Assembly (NCBI GenBank): GCA_937876415.1
Contig: CALEHE010000339.1
Span: 1-45,589, forward strand
Direction of reading: 5' to 3'
Length of the DNA stretch: 45,589 nucleotides
Source: an uncultured Actinomycetes bacterium
GTDB lineage: Bacteria > Actinomycetota > Acidimicrobiia > Acidimicrobiales > Ilumatobacteraceae
A program made the position numbers and the translations under genes. Shown piece by piece: positions 19,727-30,212 of this stretch. Each line of letters begins with the position of its first letter. Position 1 is the stretch's first letter. Below the pieces are notes generated by a model that had not been told where the DNA came from, did no database searches, and saw only the letters and a program-made list of their open reading frames with translations.

Positions 19727-20539
19727 ATGACCGATTCCCCTGCGATCCAGCACAACCGGCCCCTGCCTCGCGTTATTGCTGTGGCGAACCAAAAAGGCGG
19801 CGTCGGTAAAACCACAACTTCGGTGAACTTGTCGGCGTGTTTGGCAGAACTGGGTTTCCGCACCCTGTTGATCGATCTTGACCCGCAAGGCAACGCCTCG
19901 TCAGGCGTCGGAATTGAAACCCGGGGTATTGAAACCTCGATTTATGACGTCCTCTTAAATGATGTAGCAATTGGCGATTGTGTCGAACCGGCCAATGTCA
20001 AAAATCTCTTCGTAGTTCCAGCGAACCTTGACTTGGCTGGAGCCGAAATTGAGCTCGTGAATGAAATGGCTCGTGAGCACCGTCTCAAGCGGGCGATCGA
20101 TCAAGAACTTGATGAGTACGACTTCGTCATTATTGACTGTCCGCCCTCTCTCGGGCTCTTGACCGTGAACGCCCTGGTGGCCGCTCGCGAAGTTCTTGTC
20201 CCGATCCAGTGTGAGTATTACGCCCTGGAGGGCCTCGGTCAGTTGCTGCGCAATGTCGACAAGGTCAAAAAGAATCTCAATCCCACACTTGAAGTCAGCA
20301 CCATCTTGTGTGTGATGTACGACGCTCGAACCCAATTGTCTGCTGAGGTTGTTAAGCAGGTTCGCGAACACTTCGGCGACAAGGTGTGCGCCACGATCAT
20401 TCCACGAAACGTTCGGTTGTCGGAGGCCCCCAGCCACCACCAGCCGATCAATGTGTACGACCCGTCATCGAAGGGCTCAATCTCCTATCGATTGGTGGCT
20501 AAGGAGGTAGCTGGTGGCACGTCGCCCAGGACTCGGTAA
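19727..20539 (+). CDS. parA: Chromosome partitioning ATPase ParA (Soj)
   Basis: 270 residues from ATG at 19727 (TAAGGAAATACCC upstream). The deviant Walker A motif KGGVGKTTTSVNL at about 26-38 and the later LLIDLDPQGNASSGVG and FVIIDCPPSLGLLTVNAL are the ParA/MinD signatures. It binds DNA as an ATP dimer and is released by ParB, moving origins apart. The frame is open upstream to 19682 but with no ribosome-binding site. Its end overlaps the parB start by 26 nt. The sequence shows no unusual insertion. Confidence 0.95.
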   Translation: MTDSPAIQHNRPLPRVIAVANQKGGVGKTTTSVNLSACLAELGFRTLLIDLDPQGNASSGVGIETRGIETSIYDVLLNDVAIGDCVEPANVKNLFVVPANLDLAGAEIELVNEMAREHRLKRAIDQELDEYDFVIIDCPPSLGLLTVNALVAAREVLVPIQCEYYALEGLGQLLRNVDKVKKNLNPTLEVSTILCVMYDARTQLSAEVVKQVREHFGDKVCATIIPRNVRLSEAPSHHQPINVYDPSSKGSISYRLVAKEVAGGTSPRTR

Positions 20540-21443
20540 AGGACTTGATGCGCTGATCCCCTCAGGGTTCGGTGACTCTGGCTCAGATACAGCGGCTCGA
20601 GGAGCCTCATTGGTGGAAATCCCAGTAGGGGATCTTTCACCCAACCCCAATCAACCACGCCTTCATTTTGATGAAGAATCGCTGAGCGACCTATCGGCTT
20701 CAATCCGTGAGATCGGTGTTTTACAGCCTTTGATCGTCCGTCAACTGGCTGATGGTTCATATCAGTTGATCGCCGGAGAGCGTCGCTGGCGAGCCGCTCA
20801 ACGAGCTGGTCTGACAACAGTTCCAGCCGTTGTGAAAACAACCGATGACATGTCGTCGGTTGAACAGGCCTTAGTCGAGAACCTGCATCGTCAAGATTTG
20901 GCTCCGCTTGAAGAAGCAGGGGCTTACCAACAACTCATTGATGATTTCAGCCTGACCCACGACGATGTGGCCAAGCGCGTGGGTAAAAGCCGCAGCTCGA
21001 TCACCAATTCGTTGCGGTTACTGACCCTTCCCGCCGCTATACAAGCCTTCCTTGCCGACGGACGTTTATCGGCCGGACACGCCAAAGCGTTGCTCGGAAC
21101 TCCCGACCGGGCTTTTCAAGAGCAATTGGCTCGACGAGCGGCCATTGAAGGTTGGTCAGTTCGTTCAATCGAAGAAGCAATTCGTGATCGTGGGGGAGAC
21201 CCGCCCACCCCGGTTGTCAAGCCAGGTAAAACCGGTGATGACTCCGACACGGGGGGCACCGTCACCAAACTGCCCCCTGCCGGACTGCTTGAACTCGAGA
21301 GCCAAATTTCGGAATACTTGTCGACGCGCGTGAATGTCAGAATGAACAGCAACAAAAAGGGAGCGGTCACCATTGAGTTTGCCGGACTTGATGATCTCGA
21401 GCGGTTGTATTACTTGATGATGGGTTCCGGCCCCGTCGAGTGA
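20514..21443 (+). CDS. parB: Chromosome partitioning protein ParB
   Basis: 309 residues. It begins MARRPGLGKGLDALIPSG, the usual ParA-contacting N-terminus; the CTP-binding region has GERRWRAAQRAGLTTVPAVV and ENLHRQDLAPLEEAGAY; a helix-turn-helix includes VAKRVGKSRSSITNSLRLL. It binds the two parS sites upstream of parA. The GTG start at 20514 lies within the end of parA, after an almost perfect AAGGAGGT Shine-Dalgarno, so it should be translated efficiently. The C-terminal dimerisation region (YLMMGSGPVE at the end) is present. Confidence 0.95.
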   Translation: MARRPGLGKGLDALIPSGFGDSGSDTAARGASLVEIPVGDLSPNPNQPRLHFDEESLSDLSASIREIGVLQPLIVRQLADGSYQLIAGERRWRAAQRAGLTTVPAVVKTTDDMSSVEQALVENLHRQDLAPLEEAGAYQQLIDDFSLTHDDVAKRVGKSRSSITNSLRLLTLPAAIQAFLADGRLSAGHAKALLGTPDRAFQEQLARRAAIEGWSVRSIEEAIRDRGGDPPTPVVKPGKTGDDSDTGGTVTKLPPAGLLELESQISEYLSTRVNVRMNSNKKGAVTIEFAGLDDLERLYYLMMGSGPVE

Positions 21444-21579: not shown

Positions 21580-22530
21580 CTATGGGGCCCACGCATTCAA
21601 AGCCAAGAAAACCGCCTCCGCAATTCGTTGGCTCCGTTGAGTCATTAACTCCACTGGACCCAGAGTTAACAACACTGCAGGCATTTTGGTCTCACGCAAA
21701 ATCGGTAAGCGCATACCGTTCACTGAAATTCGGGGGACCACATCGCGAAGGTGTCTTTCAATCAAATGGGCTAACGATCGGCCACCAGCCGACTCAAAGG
21801 CTGGAACTGAGTAGTACGACACGCGCGCTTCATAGTAGGGACTTGACTCAACCCCCACATAAACATCAGCACCGAAAAGGTTGGCGGTACGGCCCTGAGC
21901 AGGTACTTCTTCATCAGTGAGTTCAATCAACATTGCGCCATGTTCACGCAATGCCTCACCCAAGGCCTGTCGGAGAGGCTCAAATTCGCCAAACTGACCC
22001 ACGGCAACGCGACGCCCGATTAGGGGTTGACCGCGTCGAGCCTTTTCGGAATCACGCACGGCCGCAATACCAGGGCCATCGCCAGTCATACGGGAAAGCC
22101 GACGTAACACCGCCACAGTGTGATCGTGGCAGACACCATCGACATCCAGACCAGCGTTCAATTGAAAATCACGCAATGATCGATTGAGTTTTTGTCCGAA
22201 AATACCGTCGATACGGCCGCAATCAAAGCCCAAGCGCGACAGTAGACGCTGAAGTTCGGCCACGTCATCGCCACGTAAGTTGGGAGAGCGCAACATGAGA
22301 GAACGATCCCCCAAACTCCACCAGGCCTCCAGCAGTGCCGTCCACGTATCGTCGTCGCAAACTCCCGAAACAGTCAGACCACGGTCTTCTTGGAACGAGA
22401 TCACGCCCTGTTGCGTACCAGCGCAGTAGAGATCGGGGGTCACACCGACATCTGGCAAATAACCAGCTGCTCCGAGGCGATGTTGCAGTTGTCGAACCGC
22501 CTCACCCGTATCACCGGGTGCGATAGCCAT
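21580..22530 (-). CDS. cwlM: CwlM-like protein: two peptidoglycan-binding domains plus degenerate amidase domain
   Basis: 316 residues. Two PG_binding_1-type repeats are visible at about 5-70 (TGEAVRQLQHRLGAAGY) and 82-145 (DDVAELQRLLSRLGFDCG...FGQKLNRSLRDFQ). The remaining part (about 165-316) resembles an Amidase_3 domain, but the zinc-ligand motifs are missing: VAVGQFG stands where DPGHGG is expected and VGVESSPYY where SIHAN is expected. In mycobacteria, CwlM (Rv3915) is located in the same trxB-trxA-cwlM order and acts as a regulator of peptidoglycan precursor synthesis rather than as a hydrolase; that role is inferred here. No signal peptide is seen. TGATG couples it to trxA. Confidence 0.8.
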   Translation of the reverse strand: MAIAPGDTGEAVRQLQHRLGAAGYLPDVGVTPDLYCAGTQQGVISFQEDRGLTVSGVCDDDTWTALLEAWWSLGDRSLMLRSPNLRGDDVAELQRLLSRLGFDCGRIDGIFGQKLNRSLRDFQLNAGLDVDGVCHDHTVAVLRRLSRMTGDGPGIAAVRDSEKARRGQPLIGRRVAVGQFGEFEPLRQALGEALREHGAMLIELTDEEVPAQGRTANLFGADVYVGVESSPYYEARVSYYSVPAFESAGGRSLAHLIERHLRDVVPRISVNGMRLPILRETKMPAVLLTLGPVELMTQRSQRIAEAVFLALNAWAP

Positions 22531-22859
22531 CAGGCGAGAAATTCCTCGAGTTCAGAAAGAAGTTGACCCTTGCCCTTGGCCCCGACCATGGTCTTGACAA
22601 GGTTGCCGTCTTTAAAGATCAACAAGGTTGGAATGCTCATGACGCCGAAACGCTGAGCGATATCACCATGGTCATCAACATTCAATTTGGCGATGGTCAC
22701 CTGACCAGCCTTTTCAGTAGCGATTTCACCCAAGATTGGGGCGATCATCTTGCACGGACCACACCATTCGGCCCAAAAATCAACGACAACAGGCGTTGAG
22801 GACGAGTTGATTGTTTCGTCGAATGTTCCAGAAGTAAGAGTGACAATTCCGTCAGCCAT
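22530..22859 (-). CDS. trxA: Thioredoxin
   Basis: 109 residues with the active site WCGPC at about 32-36 and the cis-proline region [12 protein letters not shown] near 74-85. It is a cytoplasmic disulfide reductase, regenerated by the thioredoxin reductase encoded 50 nt upstream (22910-23854). The stop codon shares a base with the cwlM-like ATG (TGATG). Length and sequence are typical. It is part of the conserved sigM-antisigma-trxB-trxA-cwlM gene block of Actinobacteria. Confidence 0.96.
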
Positions 22860-22909: not shown

Positions 22910-23854
22910 TCAGTGCTGTTGCTCTAACCAACGTTCAGTGTCAATGGCTGCCATACAACCCGAACCAGCGGCAGTAATTGCTTGGCGATACACATGATCT
23001 TTCACGTCACCACAAGCGAAGACACCTTCGATGTTGGTGTACGTACTATCAGGACGAGTGATCAAGTAGCCACTGTCTTCCATGTCGATGACACCCTTGA
23101 ACACATCAGTGTTTGGACGGTGACCAATGGCGATGAAGAGACCAGCAACAGCCATGCTGCTTTCTTCGCCGGTCACGGTGTTCTTGAGTGAAATGGATTC
23201 CAGTTGATCTTTACCAACGATCTCAGTGACAGCGGTGTTCCACAACATTTCAATCTTTGGATTAGAGAGCGCGCGATCTTGCATAATTTTGCTGGCACGG
23301 AAGGAGTCGCGACGGTGAATCAACGTGACTTTTGAGGCGAACTTGGTGAGGAAACTGGCTTCTTCGATTGCCGAGTCTCCACCACCAACAACTGCAATTT
23401 CCTTGCCGCGGAAGAAGAAACCGTCGCAGGTTGCACACGTTGACAAGCCGCGTCCGATCAGGCGTTCTTCGGCTTCAAGGCCCAGCATGAGGCTCTGTGC
23501 ACCGGTCGAAATAATCACTGAATCGGCGGTGAAAATCTCATCGCGCACGTGCACTTTGAGGGGCTTCTCACCGAACTCAACTTTGGTGGCTTTGCCAGTT
23601 AAAAACGTGGCGCCAAAGCGTGCCGCTTGATCGCGAAAACGCATCATGAGTTCTGGACCCATGATTCCCTCGGGGAAACCCGGGAAGTTTTCAACGTCGG
23701 TGGTAAGCATCAACTGTCCACCTGGTTGATCACTCGTGCTACTTGGTTCGCCTTCAATCACAAACGGAGCGAGGTTGGCGCGAGCGGCGTAGATAGCGGC
23801 GGTGAGTCCAGCCGGACCTGATCCGATGATAATGACGCGATGATGAGTAGACAT
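22910..23854 (-). CDS. trxB: Thioredoxin reductase
   Basis: 314 residues. The FAD-binding GSGPAGLTAAIYAARA motif is at the N-terminus (about 12-27), the redox-active CATCDG around 140-145, the NADPH-binding GGGDSAIEEA just after, and the second FAD motif GVFACGDVKDHVYRQA near the end. It transfers electrons from NADPH to thioredoxin TrxA, encoded next. Its ATG follows the stop of the upstream membrane-protein gene without a gap (TAAATG), so all are one transcript. Normal length. Confidence 0.96.
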   Translation of the reverse strand: MSTHHRVIIIGSGPAGLTAAIYAARANLAPFVIEGEPSSTSDQPGGQLMLTTDVENFPGFPEGIMGPELMMRFRDQAARFGATFLTGKATKVEFGEKPLKVHVRDEIFTADSVIISTGAQSLMLGLEAEERLIGRGLSTCATCDGFFFRGKEIAVVGGGDSAIEEASFLTKFASKVTLIHRRDSFRASKIMQDRALSNPKIEMLWNTAVTEIVGKDQLESISLKNTVTGEESSMAVAGLFIAIGHRPNTDVFKGVIDMEDSGYLITRPDSTYTNIEGVFACGDVKDHVYRQAITAAGSGCMAAIDTERWLEQQH

Positions 23855-24181
23855 TTAGATGCCTTCCTTACTTTGACGGCGAACCATAAAGATTGCGCCG
23901 ACAAGGCACAAAAGTGAACCGAGAACAATATGTGAAACCCAAACCGCTGAATCGTGATCAAGGGGCCATTCCAACAAATTGATGAGGCCACGAGAAATAC
24001 CAACGAGCAGTAAAACGAGAGCCATCAACCCGAGAAAAGTACCGAGTAAGCCGAAGACTAAACCTCGAGCAACCATGACAATGGGCTTCGTGGTGCGATC
24101 ACGAACCTTGTCAACAGTTTCAATAATCGTTTCGGTGAAATCAGAAGCCCAATTTGGATCGGTGAGCGGATTGCCAGCCAT
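23855..24181 (-). CDS. Holin-like/two-helix membrane protein
   Basis: 108 residues from ATG at 24181; a GTG at 24199 would add six residues and neither start has a clear ribosome-binding site. After ~45 polar residues (with TIIETVDKVRDRTTKP) there are two membrane helices, ARGLVFGLLGTFLGLMALVLLLVG and VSHIVLGSLLCLVGAIFMV, ending in a short basic tail. The pattern resembles actinobacterial 'phage holin family' (Phage_holin_3_6-like) small envelope proteins. It is inserted between the anti-sigma gene and trxB. Function unknown; a phage lysis role is unlikely in this core operon. Confidence 0.5.
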   Translation of the reverse strand: MAGNPLTDPNWASDFTETIIETVDKVRDRTTKPIVMVARGLVFGLLGTFLGLMALVLLLVGISRGLINLLEWPLDHDSAVWVSHIVLGSLLCLVGAIFMVRRQSKEGI

Positions 24182-24208
24182 GATCTTGAGGCTAGCCACG
24201 AAAGCGAG

Positions 24209-24952
24209 TTACGGCACGATGCCAATGATCACTGAGCAGTCGCTGACGCGGTACACGAAGACGCCATCTTGAGGGGTGAAGTGAATTTCGGCTGGTTCAC
24301 CAGCAAAAGTCGCTTCAATATCAATGGCTGGACGCAGTGGGTCGTCACAAAGTTGCTCGGATTTCTGTGGAATAACAAAACCCTCAACCGACCATTGAGA
24401 CACCAGGTCTTGAAGTTCGTTGGTGTCATTGATGATGAAAGAGGCTTTCGCTCCGGAGAGAGTTGAGTCGGCAGCCATCGGAGCGAAGCTGTCCGCAGCC
24501 ATCTCGGCTGGTGCTTCGGATGCCATTGGCACTGCCGCCTCTTCCGGCGAAATTTTTGATGCGACGGCCATATCGCTCACAGATTCATCTGATGAACCTG
24601 ATTGTGTTGTCGCGACGCCAATGATTGCAACGACAGCCGCCGCGGCAGCGAGTGCGCCGATATACACACCGAACTTTCGCGACTTCACTTGACTGACTGC
24701 TTGGATTTGGTTATTTCGGAGGGCTTCGTTTATTGCTTCATTTATTGCGCGGTCAATCGTGGAACCATCGGCTTGGGGGAGCGATGTCAACAGTTGCTGA
24801 CGATTGGTGACAAACCGTGCAGCACGAGACTCAACAACGACGCGTAATTCGGAGGGAATATCAGCAAGGTCTATATCGCGATCAACCAACCGACTTGCCA
24901 GCTCATCAATGATGATGTCGTCGTCAGTATTGTTCGTTGGGTCGGTGCTCAT
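24209..24952 (-). CDS. Putative anti-sigma factor, single-pass membrane protein
   Basis: 247 residues: cytoplasmic part at 1-92, one membrane helix at about 95-114 (VYIGALAAAAAVVAIIGVA), then an alanine-, methionine- and serine-rich linker and an extracytoplasmic C-terminal domain. There is no HxxxCxxC zinc anti-sigma motif. The only two cysteines of the protein, C202 and C239, both lie outside the membrane and could form a disulfide. The gene overlaps the ECF sigma gene as ATGA and takes the place of Rv3912 in mycobacteria, so it is probably the cognate anti-sigma factor; the position is the main evidence. It precedes trxB and trxA. Confidence 0.6.
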   Translation of the reverse strand: MSTDPTNNTDDDIIIDELASRLVDRDIDLADIPSELRVVVESRAARFVTNRQQLLTSLPQADGSTIDRAINEAINEALRNNQIQAVSQVKSRKFGVYIGALAAAAAVVAIIGVATTQSGSSDESVSDMAVASKISPEEAAVPMASEAPAEMAADSFAPMAADSTLSGAKASFIINDTNELQDLVSQWSVEGFVIPQKSEQLCDDPLRPAIDIEATFAGEPAEIHFTPQDGVFVYRVSDCSVIIGIVP

Positions 24953-25497
24953 GAGTGATTTCCAGTGTCTGGGGTTTGACGTTCGTGAGGTGCTTCTAAG
25001 TTCCCCAGAATGTCGGCGAGACGACCCCGCCCGCGAGCGATACGCGATCGAACCGTGCCGATGGGGATGTCGAGGACCTGACTGATCTCGTCATAATCAA
25101 GGTCGGCGACGTCACGTAGCACCAGCGCAACGCGGAATTCTTCGGGGATCTGTGCCAACCCCTGTGCCAGATAGTCAGAGGCTTCGATCATCAACTGCTG
25201 ATCATCAATCTGGGTGTCGGCAACATCAACTTGCTGACCGGCATGGGAAAAAAGCGACAACGGTCGACGCTTGCGACGACGCAATTCATCCAATGCTGCG
25301 TTTGTCGCAATCCGATAAGCCCACGTGGAAAATGTTGATCGGCCATCAAACGTTTCATATCCTCGCGCGATTGCGATCATGGCGTTTTGTGTGGCGTCGT
25401 CGGCATCAGCGTCGTTGAGCAAAATTCTTCGACAGACCGACCGAATCATTGAGTAGTGCTCTCTCAACAACGAGTCGAGAGATGGTGTCGAGGTCAT
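24949..25497 (-). CDS. sigM: ECF-family RNA polymerase sigma factor (SigM-like)
   Basis: 182 residues. Region 2 contains DADDATQNAMIAIARGYETF and the -10-reading STFSTWAYRIATNAALDELR; region 4 contains IPEEFRVALVLRDVADLDYDEI and IGTVRSRIARGRGRLAD, the HTH for -35 recognition. The location before the anti-sigma gene, trxB, trxA and cwlM equals that of mycobacterial sigM. It starts 16 nt after the end of the kinase gene, so the kinase and sigma factor may be co-expressed. It overlaps the anti-sigma gene as ATGA. The genes it controls cannot be told from this window; no clear ECF promoter was recognised. Confidence 0.9.
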   Translation of the reverse strand: MTSTPSLDSLLREHYSMIRSVCRRILLNDADADDATQNAMIAIARGYETFDGRSTFSTWAYRIATNAALDELRRRKRRPLSLFSHAGQQVDVADTQIDDQQLMIEASDYLAQGLAQIPEEFRVALVLRDVADLDYDEISQVLDIPIGTVRSRIARGRGRLADILGNLEAPHERQTPDTGNHS

Positions 25498-25513: not shown

Positions 25514-27193
25514 CTAGGGTGCCGGCAGAATTCGAATCTCACTGATGTAACCGCGGTAGGGATTGTTATTACTACAAAATCCGCTTCGACCAATTTGCGT
25601 GAGGTACACCAATGCAAATTGTGCCGGAGTCGCGAATGAGGTTGTAATCGTTGGACCACCTTCGGCAGAACCTTCCCAAATAGGCGAACCCCAGGATTCA
25701 AGATCACTACCAGCCGAGTTTGATGTGTAGACCTTGGCTTTCCAACTATCGCCCTGAACATCGGCCTGCAGTTGTGCGAGTGCGACTCCACTGAGTTGCA
25801 TTACTAAACCAACTCCCGATTTGCTACCAAATGTGGGCGACTTGTAACACGATGTTGACCAAGTCGTTGTTGCATCACCATCAGTGACGTTCCGCGCCTG
25901 ATCTTCGTTTTCGGTTTTATCATCACCCTGAGGATCAAATGATTTGATACCTGTAATTTGCACTGGACCCGTGACAACAGGAGTCGTGACCGCAATAGAA
26001 GTTGATGTCGCAAGGACAACCGATGTTGAATCTGATTTGTTGAACTGCGCAAAAATGACACCCGCAATGAGCAGAACCGTCACAATTCCGATCAACATCA
26101 CTGGAGTTGGTTTGAACGGGTTTTTCGCTTGATTCGGAGCAGTTGAGCGTGTCGATGCAGTTGGACGTGAACTTTGTTGACCGCGTTGGTCATTTTTGCT
26201 CACGGGGTCTTTTTTGCTCACGGCGTCATCTGGTTGACGGGTGATCCCTGCTGGGGTGTGTCCTTTCGGACGAATCACTTTTCCAGGAGTCGGCGTGCGA
26301 TCACCAGTGGGTCGTCTTGTATCAGCAGGTGTTGATGATTTGCGTGTTTCTATGATTCGACGAAGCGCAGTGGCAGCCTGAGCAGCATCGCCGTATCGAT
26401 CCTTGCGTTCGCGAGCAATAAGCCGGGTGATCAGTTGTGCAACTTCTGGGTCAATATCAGGCCGGTGTTGTGCGATATTAGTTGCATCGCGGTGTAGTCG
26501 AGCAAGAGCAGTGTCGGTGTCATTCTTGCCAACAAACGGAACTTTTCCGGCGAGACATTCGTACATCACGAGACCCAAAGAATAAAGATCAGCACGCGCA
26601 TCAAGACTGTCGCCACGAACCTGTTCGGGCGACAAATACTTTGCTGTTCCCATCATGATGTTTTCGCTCGTCAAGTCTTCTTCACCATCAAGTACTTTTG
26701 CGATTCCGAAATCGGTCAACATCACTTTCTTTTTGATATCTATCAAGATGTTGCCGGGTTTGACATCGCGATGGATCAGACCCTGTTTGTGGGCAGCATC
26801 AAGGGCTAGGCATACCCAGTACCCAATACTCAAGACGGTTTTGATGCTGAGAGTTTTCTCACGATCAAGTCGCTCTCGCAAAGACTCACCATCAACGAAT
26901 TCCATGATGACTGCTTGACGACCATCATCCTCGATGGCGTCGTACACCGTGACGATGTTGTCGTGATTGAGATTCGCAGCAGCGATTGCCTCCCGACGAA
27001 AACGTTCGGCCAAGGTTGACTCAGCGGCGAGATGTGGCTTCAAAAGTTTGACGGCTACTGGACGGGCCAGTTGCAAATCTGTTGCTTTCCATACATCGGC
27101 CATCCCACCATGAGCACGCAAAGAATCAAGGCGATACCGATCAGCAATAATTGATGCTGGTTTCGGAGCAGAGGGATGGGACGACGTTGACAT
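25514..27193 (-). CDS. Membrane Ser/Thr protein kinase with MviN-type ectodomain
   Basis: 559 residues. The kinase domain spans about 20-285: glycine loop AHGGMADVW (the first glycine replaced by alanine), K49 in VAVKLL, E68 in the C-helix, HRDVKPGN at 141-148, DFG at 161-163 and SPEQ at 188-191. The catalytic residues are intact, so it should be active. A 75-residue S/T/P-rich linker precedes one membrane helix (about 364-384, VMLIGIVTVLLIAGVIFAQF). The outer domain (about 400-559, FDPQGDDKTENEDQARNVTDG... ATTTWSTSCY) resembles a discoidin-like domain of the sort found at the C-terminus of actinobacterial MviN (Rv3910). No MurJ part is present. Length and context suggest an envelope-sensing kinase. 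Confidence 0.8.
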   Translation of the reverse strand: MSTSSHPSAPKPASIIADRYRLDSLRAHGGMADVWKATDLQLARPVAVKLLKPHLAAESTLAERFRREAIAAANLNHDNIVTVYDAIEDDGRQAVIMEFVDGESLRERLDREKTLSIKTVLSIGYWVCLALDAAHKQGLIHRDVKPGNILIDIKKKVMLTDFGIAKVLDGEEDLTSENIMMGTAKYLSPEQVRGDSLDARADLYSLGLVMYECLAGKVPFVGKNDTDTALARLHRDATNIAQHRPDIDPEVAQLITRLIARERKDRYGDAAQAATALRRIIETRKSSTPADTRRPTGDRTPTPGKVIRPKGHTPAGITRQPDDAVSKKDPVSKNDQRGQQSSRPTASTRSTAPNQAKNPFKPTPVMLIGIVTVLLIAGVIFAQFNKSDSTSVVLATSTSIAVTTPVVTGPVQITGIKSFDPQGDDKTENEDQARNVTDGDATTTWSTSCYKSPTFGSKSGVGLVMQLSGVALAQLQADVQGDSWKAKVYTSNSAGSDLESWGSPIWEGSAEGGPTITTSFATPAQFALVYLTQIGRSGFCSNNNPYRGYISEIRILPAP

Positions 27194-27291: not shown

Positions 27292-28143
27292 TTAGTTCTC
27301 GAAGAAAGCAACTCCGATTGTTCCGCGACCCGCATGAGCACCGACGACAGCACCAATTTCACCAACCATAATCTCGCCCGAGTAAACAGCTTTCAGTTGG
27401 GTAACGAAAGCGTCAACATCTGAACAATCAGCACTTAAGACGGCGAGTTGGCTAATGCCGGGATTGGTCGAAGCCTCTCGCACCTTGTCAACAAGAAAAG
27501 CCAGAGCCTTACTACGAGTGCGTTGCTTGCCGCCCTCTTGAACAACACCGTCGCGAACTTCGATGATGGGTTTGATCGAAAGAACTGAAGCCAACATGGC
27601 CTTGGCTCCGCCGATACGGCCACCCTTCTTGAGGTTTTCTAGGGTGTCGAGAGCCCCCCAGACCTTGCACCGACGACTGAGGTCGTGAGCAAGGGTCTCA
27701 ACCTCGTCAATGGTCTTGCCCTCTTGAGCAGCACGGGCACAGGCGACGACAATTGCGCCGAGCCCCATCGTGACTGTGCGGCTATCGACGACGCGTACAT
27801 CGCACGTGGGTTGCAGAGCCGCCGCAGCGACTTCGGCGCTTTGCATCGTGCCCGAAAGTGCGGCCGATAAGTTGATGATGATCACTCCGGTAGCGCCTTC
27901 GCCTTGGAGTTTGCGGACGGCGTCTTCAAACCGACCAGGCGACGGAGCAGCGGTTGATGGAAGTTCGGCTTCAACTGAACATCTTTGCCAAAACTGAGCG
28001 GTCGTCAACTGTTCGCGATCAACTAATTCGTCATCGCCAAATCTGATAAATAGCGGAACAACTTCAATTCCGAGAGATTGAACGACCGAATCAGGTAGGT
28101 CACACGCACTGTCGGTAATGATACGAACGGCTGAAGTAGTCAC
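27292..28143 (-). CDS. DegV family protein (fatty-acid-binding)
   Basis: 283 residues. The N-terminus VRIITDSACDLPDSVVQSLGIEVVPLFIRFGD is the standard DegV opening, followed by TAAPSPGRFEDAVRKL and IIINLSAALSGTMQSA, and VDSRTVTMGLGAIV in the middle. DegV proteins are two-domain cytosolic proteins that bind fatty acids; in Firmicutes they act with fatty-acid kinase FakA. It lies 23 nt after the DUF6049 gene on the same strand and 98 nt ahead of the kinase gene; in mycobacteria this slot is MviN. The gap 27194-27291 contains no visible gene. Confidence 0.85.
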   Translation of the reverse strand: MTTSAVRIITDSACDLPDSVVQSLGIEVVPLFIRFGDDELVDREQLTTAQFWQRCSVEAELPSTAAPSPGRFEDAVRKLQGEGATGVIIINLSAALSGTMQSAEVAAAALQPTCDVRVVDSRTVTMGLGAIVVACARAAQEGKTIDEVETLAHDLSRRCKVWGALDTLENLKKGGRIGGAKAMLASVLSIKPIIEVRDGVVQEGGKQRTRSKALAFLVDKVREASTNPGISQLAVLSADCSDVDAFVTQLKAVYSGEIMVGEIGAVVGAHAGRGTIGVAFFEN

Positions 28144-28166: not shown

Positions 28167-30212
28167 CTATGCGGAACGTTCGCCAGAGGGGTGCCGCTCG
28201 GTGGAGTCAAAACTTTCAAATTGACGGCGGCGATGTTCACGTCGTAGGTGATGGATCCACCAGGACAACAACAACAACAAAGCGACTCCGGTGAACAGTT
28301 GACCCAGTCCTGCTAAGGCGTTGACCCGAGCCGAGAAGGTGGCAGGGGCCCCAACGGTGACTTCACCATTGGGTGTCAGGAGTTGCAAGGTCACCGGAAA
28401 ACGGCCGTTACTTTTTGCTGTGACTGGTATTTCGACCAACGTGGTAGTTCCAGCGGGCAGAGTCACTACTTGGTCATCTTGTGGAAGCGTAAGTTTCGAA
28501 CTGGTCAGATGCACGCGCACCAACAGGTCGGTGTCGTTGTCGTTGCGTAATGACAGGCGAATGGAACTATCGCGGCCACCCAATGTGAAAGTGGTTGAGG
28601 TGGGGGTCACGACCGACCCGCCGATCGCTGCAAGTTCAGTGTCAATTGCATTGATATATGCCTTGACCTGCACTTGGTTGAGGCTTCGTGACGGCAAGAC
28701 GTTGACAACTCGACGCCACTGAATCGGGCGTTCGTCGCCATCGGGCAACATGGCGGAAAATCCGTTCACTCGATCAGCAAATTCATTTAACGAGGCATCG
28801 CTGGTGCCCAGATCGTCTTGGACTTGAAGTTCAACCGAAACCGGCAACCCGTCCATGACGCTGACCGTCATGGTGCCTAATAGATCCCTAAGAGAGACAA
28901 AATTTATGTCGGGTTGACCAGCAAGGGAGTTAACGAGTGCCGTGATAAGTGCAGTTGATGGCAACACCCCCGAGTCGGTCGACAAAATGACCCCCCGACC
29001 GTTCATGGTTTCGTCGCGGTCAATGATTTCGATACGCAACACCTTGAGTTCTGCCAAAATTTGCTGGGCGACGAGGTAGGCCCCACCGTAAGGGTCATTT
29101 GATCCACGGGTAAGTGCTTCACCGAGATGAATGTCGGCTAGTGCAGCAGTCATACGATCAGAATTTGACAGTTTCAGTTCAAACATTCGCGTGGGTTCAG
29201 CGAAAAGTGAGATTCCGCCGGCAGTTGTTTTTTGCGACTCGCTGAGCAAGACGGCCGTACGAAGTCCCAGATTACGGAGTAATTGCGCACCGCTACTGGA
29301 TAGTGCAGAACTCTGGAGCCACGAGTAGCGACTGACTGATTTAGTTGGGAAAATTCCGGCCATCGTGTCTTCACCGAGTCGCAGCTGGGCCGTGAAGACC
29401 TCAGAATTTTGGCTAGCGACCAATTCGTCGGGTTGTACATCGACATAAGTTGAGGCGAGCAGGTGCAAGGATGTCGCGGCTTGCAATCGGTTCAGGACAG
29501 CAATGTCTGCATCAGATGAGTTAGCTAGGGCGTCCATCAGTTCGGGGCGGATCGCCAGCGAGACAGCAGTTTGTGGATTCGTTTCAAGTGTGGTGACGGC
29601 ATTTGACAAAAGTTCGCGACTGGCCTCGCTGACTAGGGTTGAGCCGTCAGATTGCAAACTGATATCACTAGTTAAAGTTCCAACGAGAGCGAGTCGAAGA
29701 TTTTCCCTTGGAAGGGGACTGGTGACGTCTTGGGGTAGGCGTTCGACAAAAGTGACGATTTGGCTGGTCACCAATTTACCCTCTTGAAGTCCGATACTGA
29801 TCGGATAGACGCCAGTGGCCGACATCTGCAACGCATCTTTGGTGCGCCTACCAATTTCAATCGGGACAGCCACATCAACTCGGCCAGTGGCGGGATCTCG
29901 AACTTGGCTGACGTCAATAATGACGGTGTCAACTATTGACGGCAACTCACCAGAGGCCGCAGCGCGCACGTCTTGGCGAGTCTGCACTGGCTTATACGAC
30001 GTGATCACTAATTTTGTTGAAGCAGTTGATGCAGCATCGCGACCACTCAAGGTAACACTAAAACGAATGAGCGAATTTTCGACTCCGGCGACGTATTGGT
30101 CTTGACTGATGAGCGACGAAATGATTTCGGGTGTCGCGGCTTTGGCGGCTTGTAGCGGGATGACCGTCGCTGCCATGAGAGTGCCAAGCGCGATGAGTAA
30201 TCGAGATCTCAC
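28167..30212 (-). CDS. DUF6049-type exported membrane protein
   Basis: 681 residues. An N-terminal signal peptide (LLIALGTLMAATVIPLQAAKA) is followed by a large extracytoplasmic region and a C-terminal membrane helix at about 640-660 (LFTGVALLLLLSWWIHHLRR) with a basic tail inside. The immunoglobulin-like beta segments (TTFTLGGRDSSIRLSLRNDND, LLVRVHLTSS) and overall layout resemble the large exported protein encoded before mviN in mycobacteria (Rv3909). Function is unknown; a role in cell-wall assembly is suspected. The GTG start at 30212 overlaps the stop of the GNAT gene as GTGA. Confidence 0.7.
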   Translation of the reverse strand: MRSRLLIALGTLMAATVIPLQAAKAATPEIISSLISQDQYVAGVENSLIRFSVTLSGRDAASTASTKLVITSYKPVQTRQDVRAAASGELPSIVDTVIIDVSQVRDPATGRVDVAVPIEIGRRTKDALQMSATGVYPISIGLQEGKLVTSQIVTFVERLPQDVTSPLPRENLRLALVGTLTSDISLQSDGSTLVSEASRELLSNAVTTLETNPQTAVSLAIRPELMDALANSSDADIAVLNRLQAATSLHLLASTYVDVQPDELVASQNSEVFTAQLRLGEDTMAGIFPTKSVSRYSWLQSSALSSSGAQLLRNLGLRTAVLLSESQKTTAGGISLFAEPTRMFELKLSNSDRMTAALADIHLGEALTRGSNDPYGGAYLVAQQILAELKVLRIEIIDRDETMNGRGVILSTDSGVLPSTALITALVNSLAGQPDINFVSLRDLLGTMTVSVMDGLPVSVELQVQDDLGTSDASLNEFADRVNGFSAMLPDGDERPIQWRRVVNVLPSRSLNQVQVKAYINAIDTELAAIGGSVVTPTSTTFTLGGRDSSIRLSLRNDNDTDLLVRVHLTSSKLTLPQDDQVVTLPAGTTTLVEIPVTAKSNGRFPVTLQLLTPNGEVTVGAPATFSARVNALAGLGQLFTGVALLLLLSWWIHHLRREHRRRQFESFDSTERHPSGERSA

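Follow-up and report, generated by a model that had tools for sequence, protein, structure and literature searches.

An active-looking receptor kinase with an MviN-type outer domain, encoded apart from MurJ at the sigM-cwlM locus of an Acidimicrobiales genome

In mycobacteria, the pseudokinase MviN (Rv3910, ActPs3) is encoded between a DUF6049 gene and sigM-trxB-trxC-cwlM, with MurJ fused in front of a dead kinase domain (VALT, LSIDHPSR, no DFG). The locus described here holds, at the same place, a separate gene for a protein with the same succession of kinase fold, membrane helix and discoidin/CBM-type outer domain, whereas the kinase is intact and MurJ lies elsewhere in the genome rather than in the same chain. 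The question is whether such a gene is the remnant of an MviN that was split or the state from which MviN arose; the original prediction for this DNA had allowed both. The window, meaning the whole stretch of 45,589 nucleotides that was analysed, comes from a genome that, judged by its named relatives, belongs to the Ilumatobacteraceae/acIV freshwater group of the order Acidimicrobiales.

Kinase, membrane helix and outer domain

The gene (25514..27193, minus strand, ATG start) encodes a receptor-type Ser/Thr kinase of 559 aa with a putative CBM32/discoidin outer domain, homologous to the pseudokinase-TM-ectodomain half of MviN. The kinase domain extends over residues ~12-290 (26324..27160, minus strand) and was matched by Pfam Pkinase at residues 29-270 (1.1e-49). 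An active-looking kinase with VAVK, HRD and DFG had been proposed from the letters of the DNA, and these motifs are intact in an open reading frame of exactly that extent: VAVK (K49), E68, HRDVKPGN (141-148, with HRD at 141-143 and N148), DFG (161-163) and Glu190 of APE are all kept. The beta3 Lys, HRD Asp, Asn and DFG Asp of an active Hanks-type kinase are therefore present. T175 aligns with the first Thr of the PknB activation loop (T171 in M. tuberculosis numbering). K49, E68, D143, N148, D161, T175 and E190 are invariant among the intact kinases found at this locus (51/51), which were drawn from the window's order and from families f35, f43, f58, f65, f70 and f72; one of the 51, the f70 member L195, has HGD and DFA motifs. 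ActPs3 pseudokinases are defined by the loss of the catalytic motifs and the activation loop (PMC12599244), a hallmark that is absent from the window kinase. Its sequence suggests that the gene product would be a receptor Ser/Thr kinase that spans the membrane once and is competent for catalysis.

PknB and PknA are the nearest solved kinases to this domain and share the activation-loop Thr. However, PknB carries PASTA repeats outside the cell, is encoded at a different locus and forms a separate clade, whereas the window kinase has a CBM32/discoidin-like domain outside and gave no Pfam match to PASTA repeats. Four Pkinase-family matches, including one below threshold, were found in the genome. 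A kinase of the PknB clade is also encoded there, on contig C87, where it is cut by the contig end. Contig C26 of the same genome carries a PASTA pseudokinase (L005, 253-2364, minus strand) with three PASTA domains and the degenerate motifs VILR, HHDLRPSS and DIG.

A Thr/Pro-rich linker joins the kinase domain to a single membrane helix (residues 364-382; 26048..26104, minus strand), identified by hydropathy and followed by an outer domain of ~177 residues (383-559; 25517..26047, minus strand). No Pfam family matched the outer domain in the window protein itself; related copies gave weak matches to CBM_AftD (3.7e-5), in line with a CBM fold, and to F5_F8_type_C (1.5e-4). An AlphaFold2 model made with 55 named relatives had a pLDDT of 94 and a pTM of 0.86. 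When the model was compared with known structures by Foldseek and VIA-align, it was placed with carbohydrate-binding modules of family 32 and with discoidin folds (7d29, Z 14.0 over 120 residues; 4a42, Z 13.6), the best Foldseek match being a pectin CBM. The model thus predicts a CBM32/discoidin beta-sandwich, a fold shared with CBM32 and F5/8 type C domains at low sequence identity. C449 and C540 form a Cys pair that is conserved in the outer domains of the window's family and was not seen in the alignment of other families; it may possibly form a lineage-specific disulfide.

The relation of this domain to MviN was evaluated with an Acidimicrobiia-only profile, built from sequences of the window's order alone, with E values given at a 1,000,000-sequence scale. 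The profile recovered the C-terminus of the mycobacterial MurJ-pseudokinase fusions (1e-18 to 1e-24) and, furthermore, the separate Streptomyces-like proteins (1e-13 to 1e-28). The mycobacterial gene at the locus is certainly MviN, because the structures solved for the M. tuberculosis domain (3OTV, 3UQC, 3OUN) match its pseudokinase region at 1.6e-153. Judged by these profiles, the outer domain and the C-terminal domain of Rv3910-type MviN are homologues, as the description of it as an MviN-type ectodomain had anticipated.

Gene order and the location of MurJ

The kinase gene is part of a compact minus-strand cluster, in the order GNAT, DUF6049-like, degV, kinase, sigM, anti-sigma factor, small membrane protein, trxB, trxA and cwlM, that faces parB and parA. 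The conserved upstream neighbour (28167..30212, minus strand) encodes a DUF6049-like membrane or exported protein; Pfam DUF6049 did not match this product, which was tied to the family by BLAST to a Streptomyces-like neighbour (9e-10) that is DUF6049 by Pfam (PF19516, 2.5e-60). A DegV-family protein (27292..28143, minus strand) is encoded beside the kinase; in sister families its gene comes after MurJ. On the other side, a gap of 17 bp separates the kinase from a SigM-like ECF sigma factor (24949..25497, minus strand), whose gene overlaps by 4 bp that of a putative membrane anti-sigma factor (24209..24952, minus strand), assigned by position and without a significant Pfam match. These are followed by a small holin-like membrane protein that is conserved in the cluster (23855..24199, minus strand), the thioredoxin reductase TrxB (22910..23854, minus strand), the thioredoxin TrxA (22530..22859, minus strand) and a CwlM-like protein (21580..22530, minus strand). 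The layout is operon-like down to cwlM, and the convergent ParB gene (20514..21443, plus strand) anchors the synteny.

The MviN-type order DUF6049 - X - sigM - trxB - trxA - cwlM is thus present in the window. The placement of the kinase at the position of Rv3910 holds as regards this shared order, but in this lineage degV separates the kinase from the DUF6049-type gene. Other families of the order Acidimicrobiales (L086, L087, L092, L093, L147) share the arrangement and have MurJ ahead of degV, next to the DUF6049-like gene, and the order DUF6049-MurJ-kinase/pseudokinase-sigM-trxB recurs in many further families across the phylum.

MurJ had been reported as missing from the locus, and it is indeed absent here and in all family members inspected. 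A search of the genome identified one clear, unfused MurJ of 587 aa on contig C44, adjoining probable AAA-ATPase and glutamate-5-kinase-like genes, which were named by reading the sequence. In the MurJ tree this protein falls into one clade, with a support of 100, with the locus MurJ proteins of sister families (G049, G042, G044, G050), within a subclade of off-locus copies. Because it groups with the locus proteins of sister families, MurJ was moved away from the locus and not lost. The MurJ proteins of the order and of the phylum fall into two deeply divergent lineages, and both are found at the kinase locus in different families (L351, L338, L190, L179 and others).

The possibility was considered that an ancestral MviN-like fusion of MurJ and kinase was split, with MurJ lost or moved. 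The missing MurJ is what such a split would leave behind. However, among the sampled loci the fusion occurs only in f57, the Mycobacterium-type clade; the other loci that bear MurJ, including those of families with intact kinases, keep the two genes separate, and it is implausible that a dead domain would have recovered K, HRD, DFG and T175. Fission is therefore very improbable. No MurJ-kinase fusion of the MviN type, which would have spoken against a separate state, was found in the genome (92.6% complete), where the outer domain is present in one copy. Of the two alternatives first offered, the split thus stands as regards the relocation of MurJ but not as regards its loss or the breaking of a fusion. 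The ancestral separate state fits better: in sister and distant families alike, MurJ is encoded by a gene of its own next to the kinase.

A second reading of the cluster is that the kinase serves its present neighbours, the SigM/anti-sigma pair or DegV, in an envelope-stress branch that does not depend on the flipping of lipid II. The short distance to sigM, the overlap of sigM with the anti-sigma gene and the operon-like layout down to cwlM are consistent with this, as are the lack of MurJ at the locus throughout the family members inspected and the outcome of a search for FhaA_N, which was not found in the genome. In many other lineages, however, MurJ adjoins the kinase, whether the copy is active or dead, and service to the present neighbours is a tentative and rather doubtful reading.

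Descent of the MviN pseudokinase

The distribution of active and degenerate copies was surveyed in 396 genomes of 245 genera of Actinomycetota. The outer domain is present in 208 of these genomes and in 137 of the genera. The sigM/trxB/MurJ locus holds 86 of the genes that encode both a kinase and the outer domain. Of these, 51, with L077 counted among them, have K, D, N and D intact, and 35 are degenerate. The intact kinases comprise all sampled members of the window's order (17 families), those of f35, f43, f65 and f72, the majority of those in f58 and a single borderline f70 member. The degenerate copies differ in the extent of their decay. Lys and DF are kept in the f47 pseudokinases, with HGS or HRN and DFS; the degenerate f70 copies have HGN and DFA, and in f58 the L178 copy has HGA and has lost the activation loop. 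In f40 and f44 the activation loop is missing and the motif reads HGN or HGA. The Streptomyces-like proteins of f52 (L094, L095) resemble the window gene in being encoded separately, at the same locus and with the same outer domain, but their kinase is fully degenerate (HLRL, RGLAV) and MurJ is adjacent. In the mycobacterial f57, the motif reads LSIDHPSR and the domain is fused to MurJ. Degenerate families are also found in the window's own class (f32, f33, f89, f91).

In a TrxB+ParA+ParB tree the state of the kinase changes at least five times, and the actinomycete families f57, f96, f52, f81, f64, f61 and f94 form one dead clade. With regain barred, the same tree gives approximately seven losses. 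Both counts are provisional, given the weakness of the root and of several deep nodes, and the number and the direction of the losses depend on the model and on how the phylum tree is rooted.

Additional copies occur away from the locus. Intact off-locus kinases with the same outer domain were seen in further families of the phylum, at L167-L173, L182-L185, L191-L193, L196, L207 and L208, and Mycobacterium-type genomes carry, at L176 and L177, extra off-locus genes for MviN-like pseudokinases with outer domains. An active-looking off-locus kinase of the mycobacterial genome G199 (L175, 7240-9156, plus strand) has an outer domain 66% identical to that of the genome's own MviN, and this identity marks the domain as a recent copy from a Mycobacterium-type MviN.

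Orthology was then weighed on the kinase domain itself. All locus kinases form one group in the best kinase tree, with a support of 55, and PknB is a separate clade, with a support of 95. The mild pseudokinases of f47 (HGS/HRN and DFS), f70 (HGN and DFA) and f58 (HGA) nest among the active locus kinases (support 91), and profiles of the locus kinases outscored those of PknB, PknA and other kinases on them by 10 to 116 bits. The Streptomyces-like pseudokinases favoured the locus-kinase profiles by 6 to 12 bits, and a reverse search with them returned locus kinases only among the top 15. The mycobacterial pseudokinase domain alone showed no preference for locus kinases over other kinase profiles; its orthology could not be established from kinase-domain profiles, the domain being too diverged. 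By profile scores, 21 of 39 degenerate kinase domains showed no preference for the locus group. Moreover, outer-domain profiles did not separate locus kinases from other kinases with the same domain, partly owing to the copied MviN domain in the G199 kinase. Because the kinase domain is too eroded, the common descent of the window gene and MviN rests on the homology of the outer domains, the gene order and the intermediates. On these comparisons, it is very probable that the window kinase and the kinase from which the dead domain of MviN arose are orthologues.

An alternative is that an unrelated, active kinase of the PknB type acquired the MviN-type outer domain by shuffling and displaced the pseudokinase in this order. 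Shuffling does occur, as the G199 kinase illustrates, and the kinase domain alone fails to tie mycobacterial MviN to the locus kinases. However, active locus kinases stand at the same place in at least six separate lineages, and the f47, f70 and f58 intermediates lie clearly within the locus kinase group. In addition, a constraint uniting all kinases with this outer domain raised the likelihood by 13.8 (p-AU 0.72). Displacement is accordingly unlikely. It is probable that a live kinase in a separate gene was ancestral, that catalysis decayed repeatedly, that MurJ moved away in the window's lineage and that mycobacteria fused a dead kinase to MurJ.

Proposed mechanism and meaning

The ancestral locus would have held adjacent genes for the DUF6049 protein, the MurJ flippase, a kinase with a CBM32-type outer domain, SigM, the anti-sigma factor, TrxB/A and CwlM. 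MurJ would then have been relocated in the window's lineage; in several other lineages the kinase would have lost catalysis and retained the outer domain, and the joining of the dead kinase to MurJ would be a late step in mycobacteria. The pairing of a CBM32-type domain outside with a PknB-like receptor kinase points to the recognition of a glycan in the envelope and to dimerisation under the control of the ligand. The outer domain may bind a glycan of the cell envelope, and the state of the ligand would alter the dimerisation of the cytoplasmic kinase, which would autophosphorylate T175, the counterpart of PknB T171. Its substrates may be partners in envelope synthesis, ancestrally the MurJ/CwlM machinery, or else the products of its own operon. 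Where catalysis was lost, the domain would have stayed as a phospho-accepting scaffold, with PknB taking over the phosphorylation, an arrangement known for MviN and FhaA.

In M. tuberculosis, the tail at the C-terminus of CwlM is phosphorylated by PknB. The CwlM-like protein of the window has two PG_binding_1 domains and a degenerate amidase part: Amidase_3 had no detectable Pfam match in it, and a C-terminal tail carrying the T382-type PknB phosphosite is absent. The aligned zinc-ligand region looks degenerate. Unphosphorylated CwlM of M. tuberculosis binds the linker of MurJ (PMC6180346), and a review of ActPs3 describes the dead MviN domain as phosphorylated by PknB and recruiting FhaA (PMC12599244). 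This mycobacterial wiring is not simply present here, because FhaA_N was not found and the CwlM-like protein has neither a detectable amidase domain nor the tail with the PknB site. The first suggestion, that the kinase would sense the outside and feed the sigM-cwlM genes, agrees with the operon layout, but the same two findings, the missing CwlM tail and the failure to find FhaA_N, weigh against it.

From its sequence, the window gene appears to be an active-looking, unfused relative of an already known pseudokinase. The literature searched, in which subscription journals were mostly missing, yielded no description of an active kinase of the MviN type. The ActPs3 review names MviN and states that the other members have no carbohydrate-binding domain (PMC12599244), and a C. 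diphtheriae study confined the extended pseudokinase to organisms with arabinogalactan (PMC10166564). Against the phylum-wide survey of the outer domain and the locus, both prove too narrow.

The chances are about even that these genes represent a third way of peptidoglycan-linked sensing in Actinomycetota, through a CBM32 receptor kinase whose ancestral partner was the lipid II flippase MurJ, which is live in Acidimicrobiales and several other lineages and which repeatedly decayed at its locus into the MviN scaffold of M. tuberculosis. Such a system would stand beside the PASTA kinases and the anti-sigma sensors of the phylum. For the pseudokinase of MviN, which regulates cell-wall synthesis in M. 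tuberculosis, the gene supplies a plausible ancestor with catalytic activity, and a single locus offers a natural series of steps in the decay of a kinase. With this series, the signal of the outer domain, the former substrates of the kinase and the passage of its role to PknB become testable.
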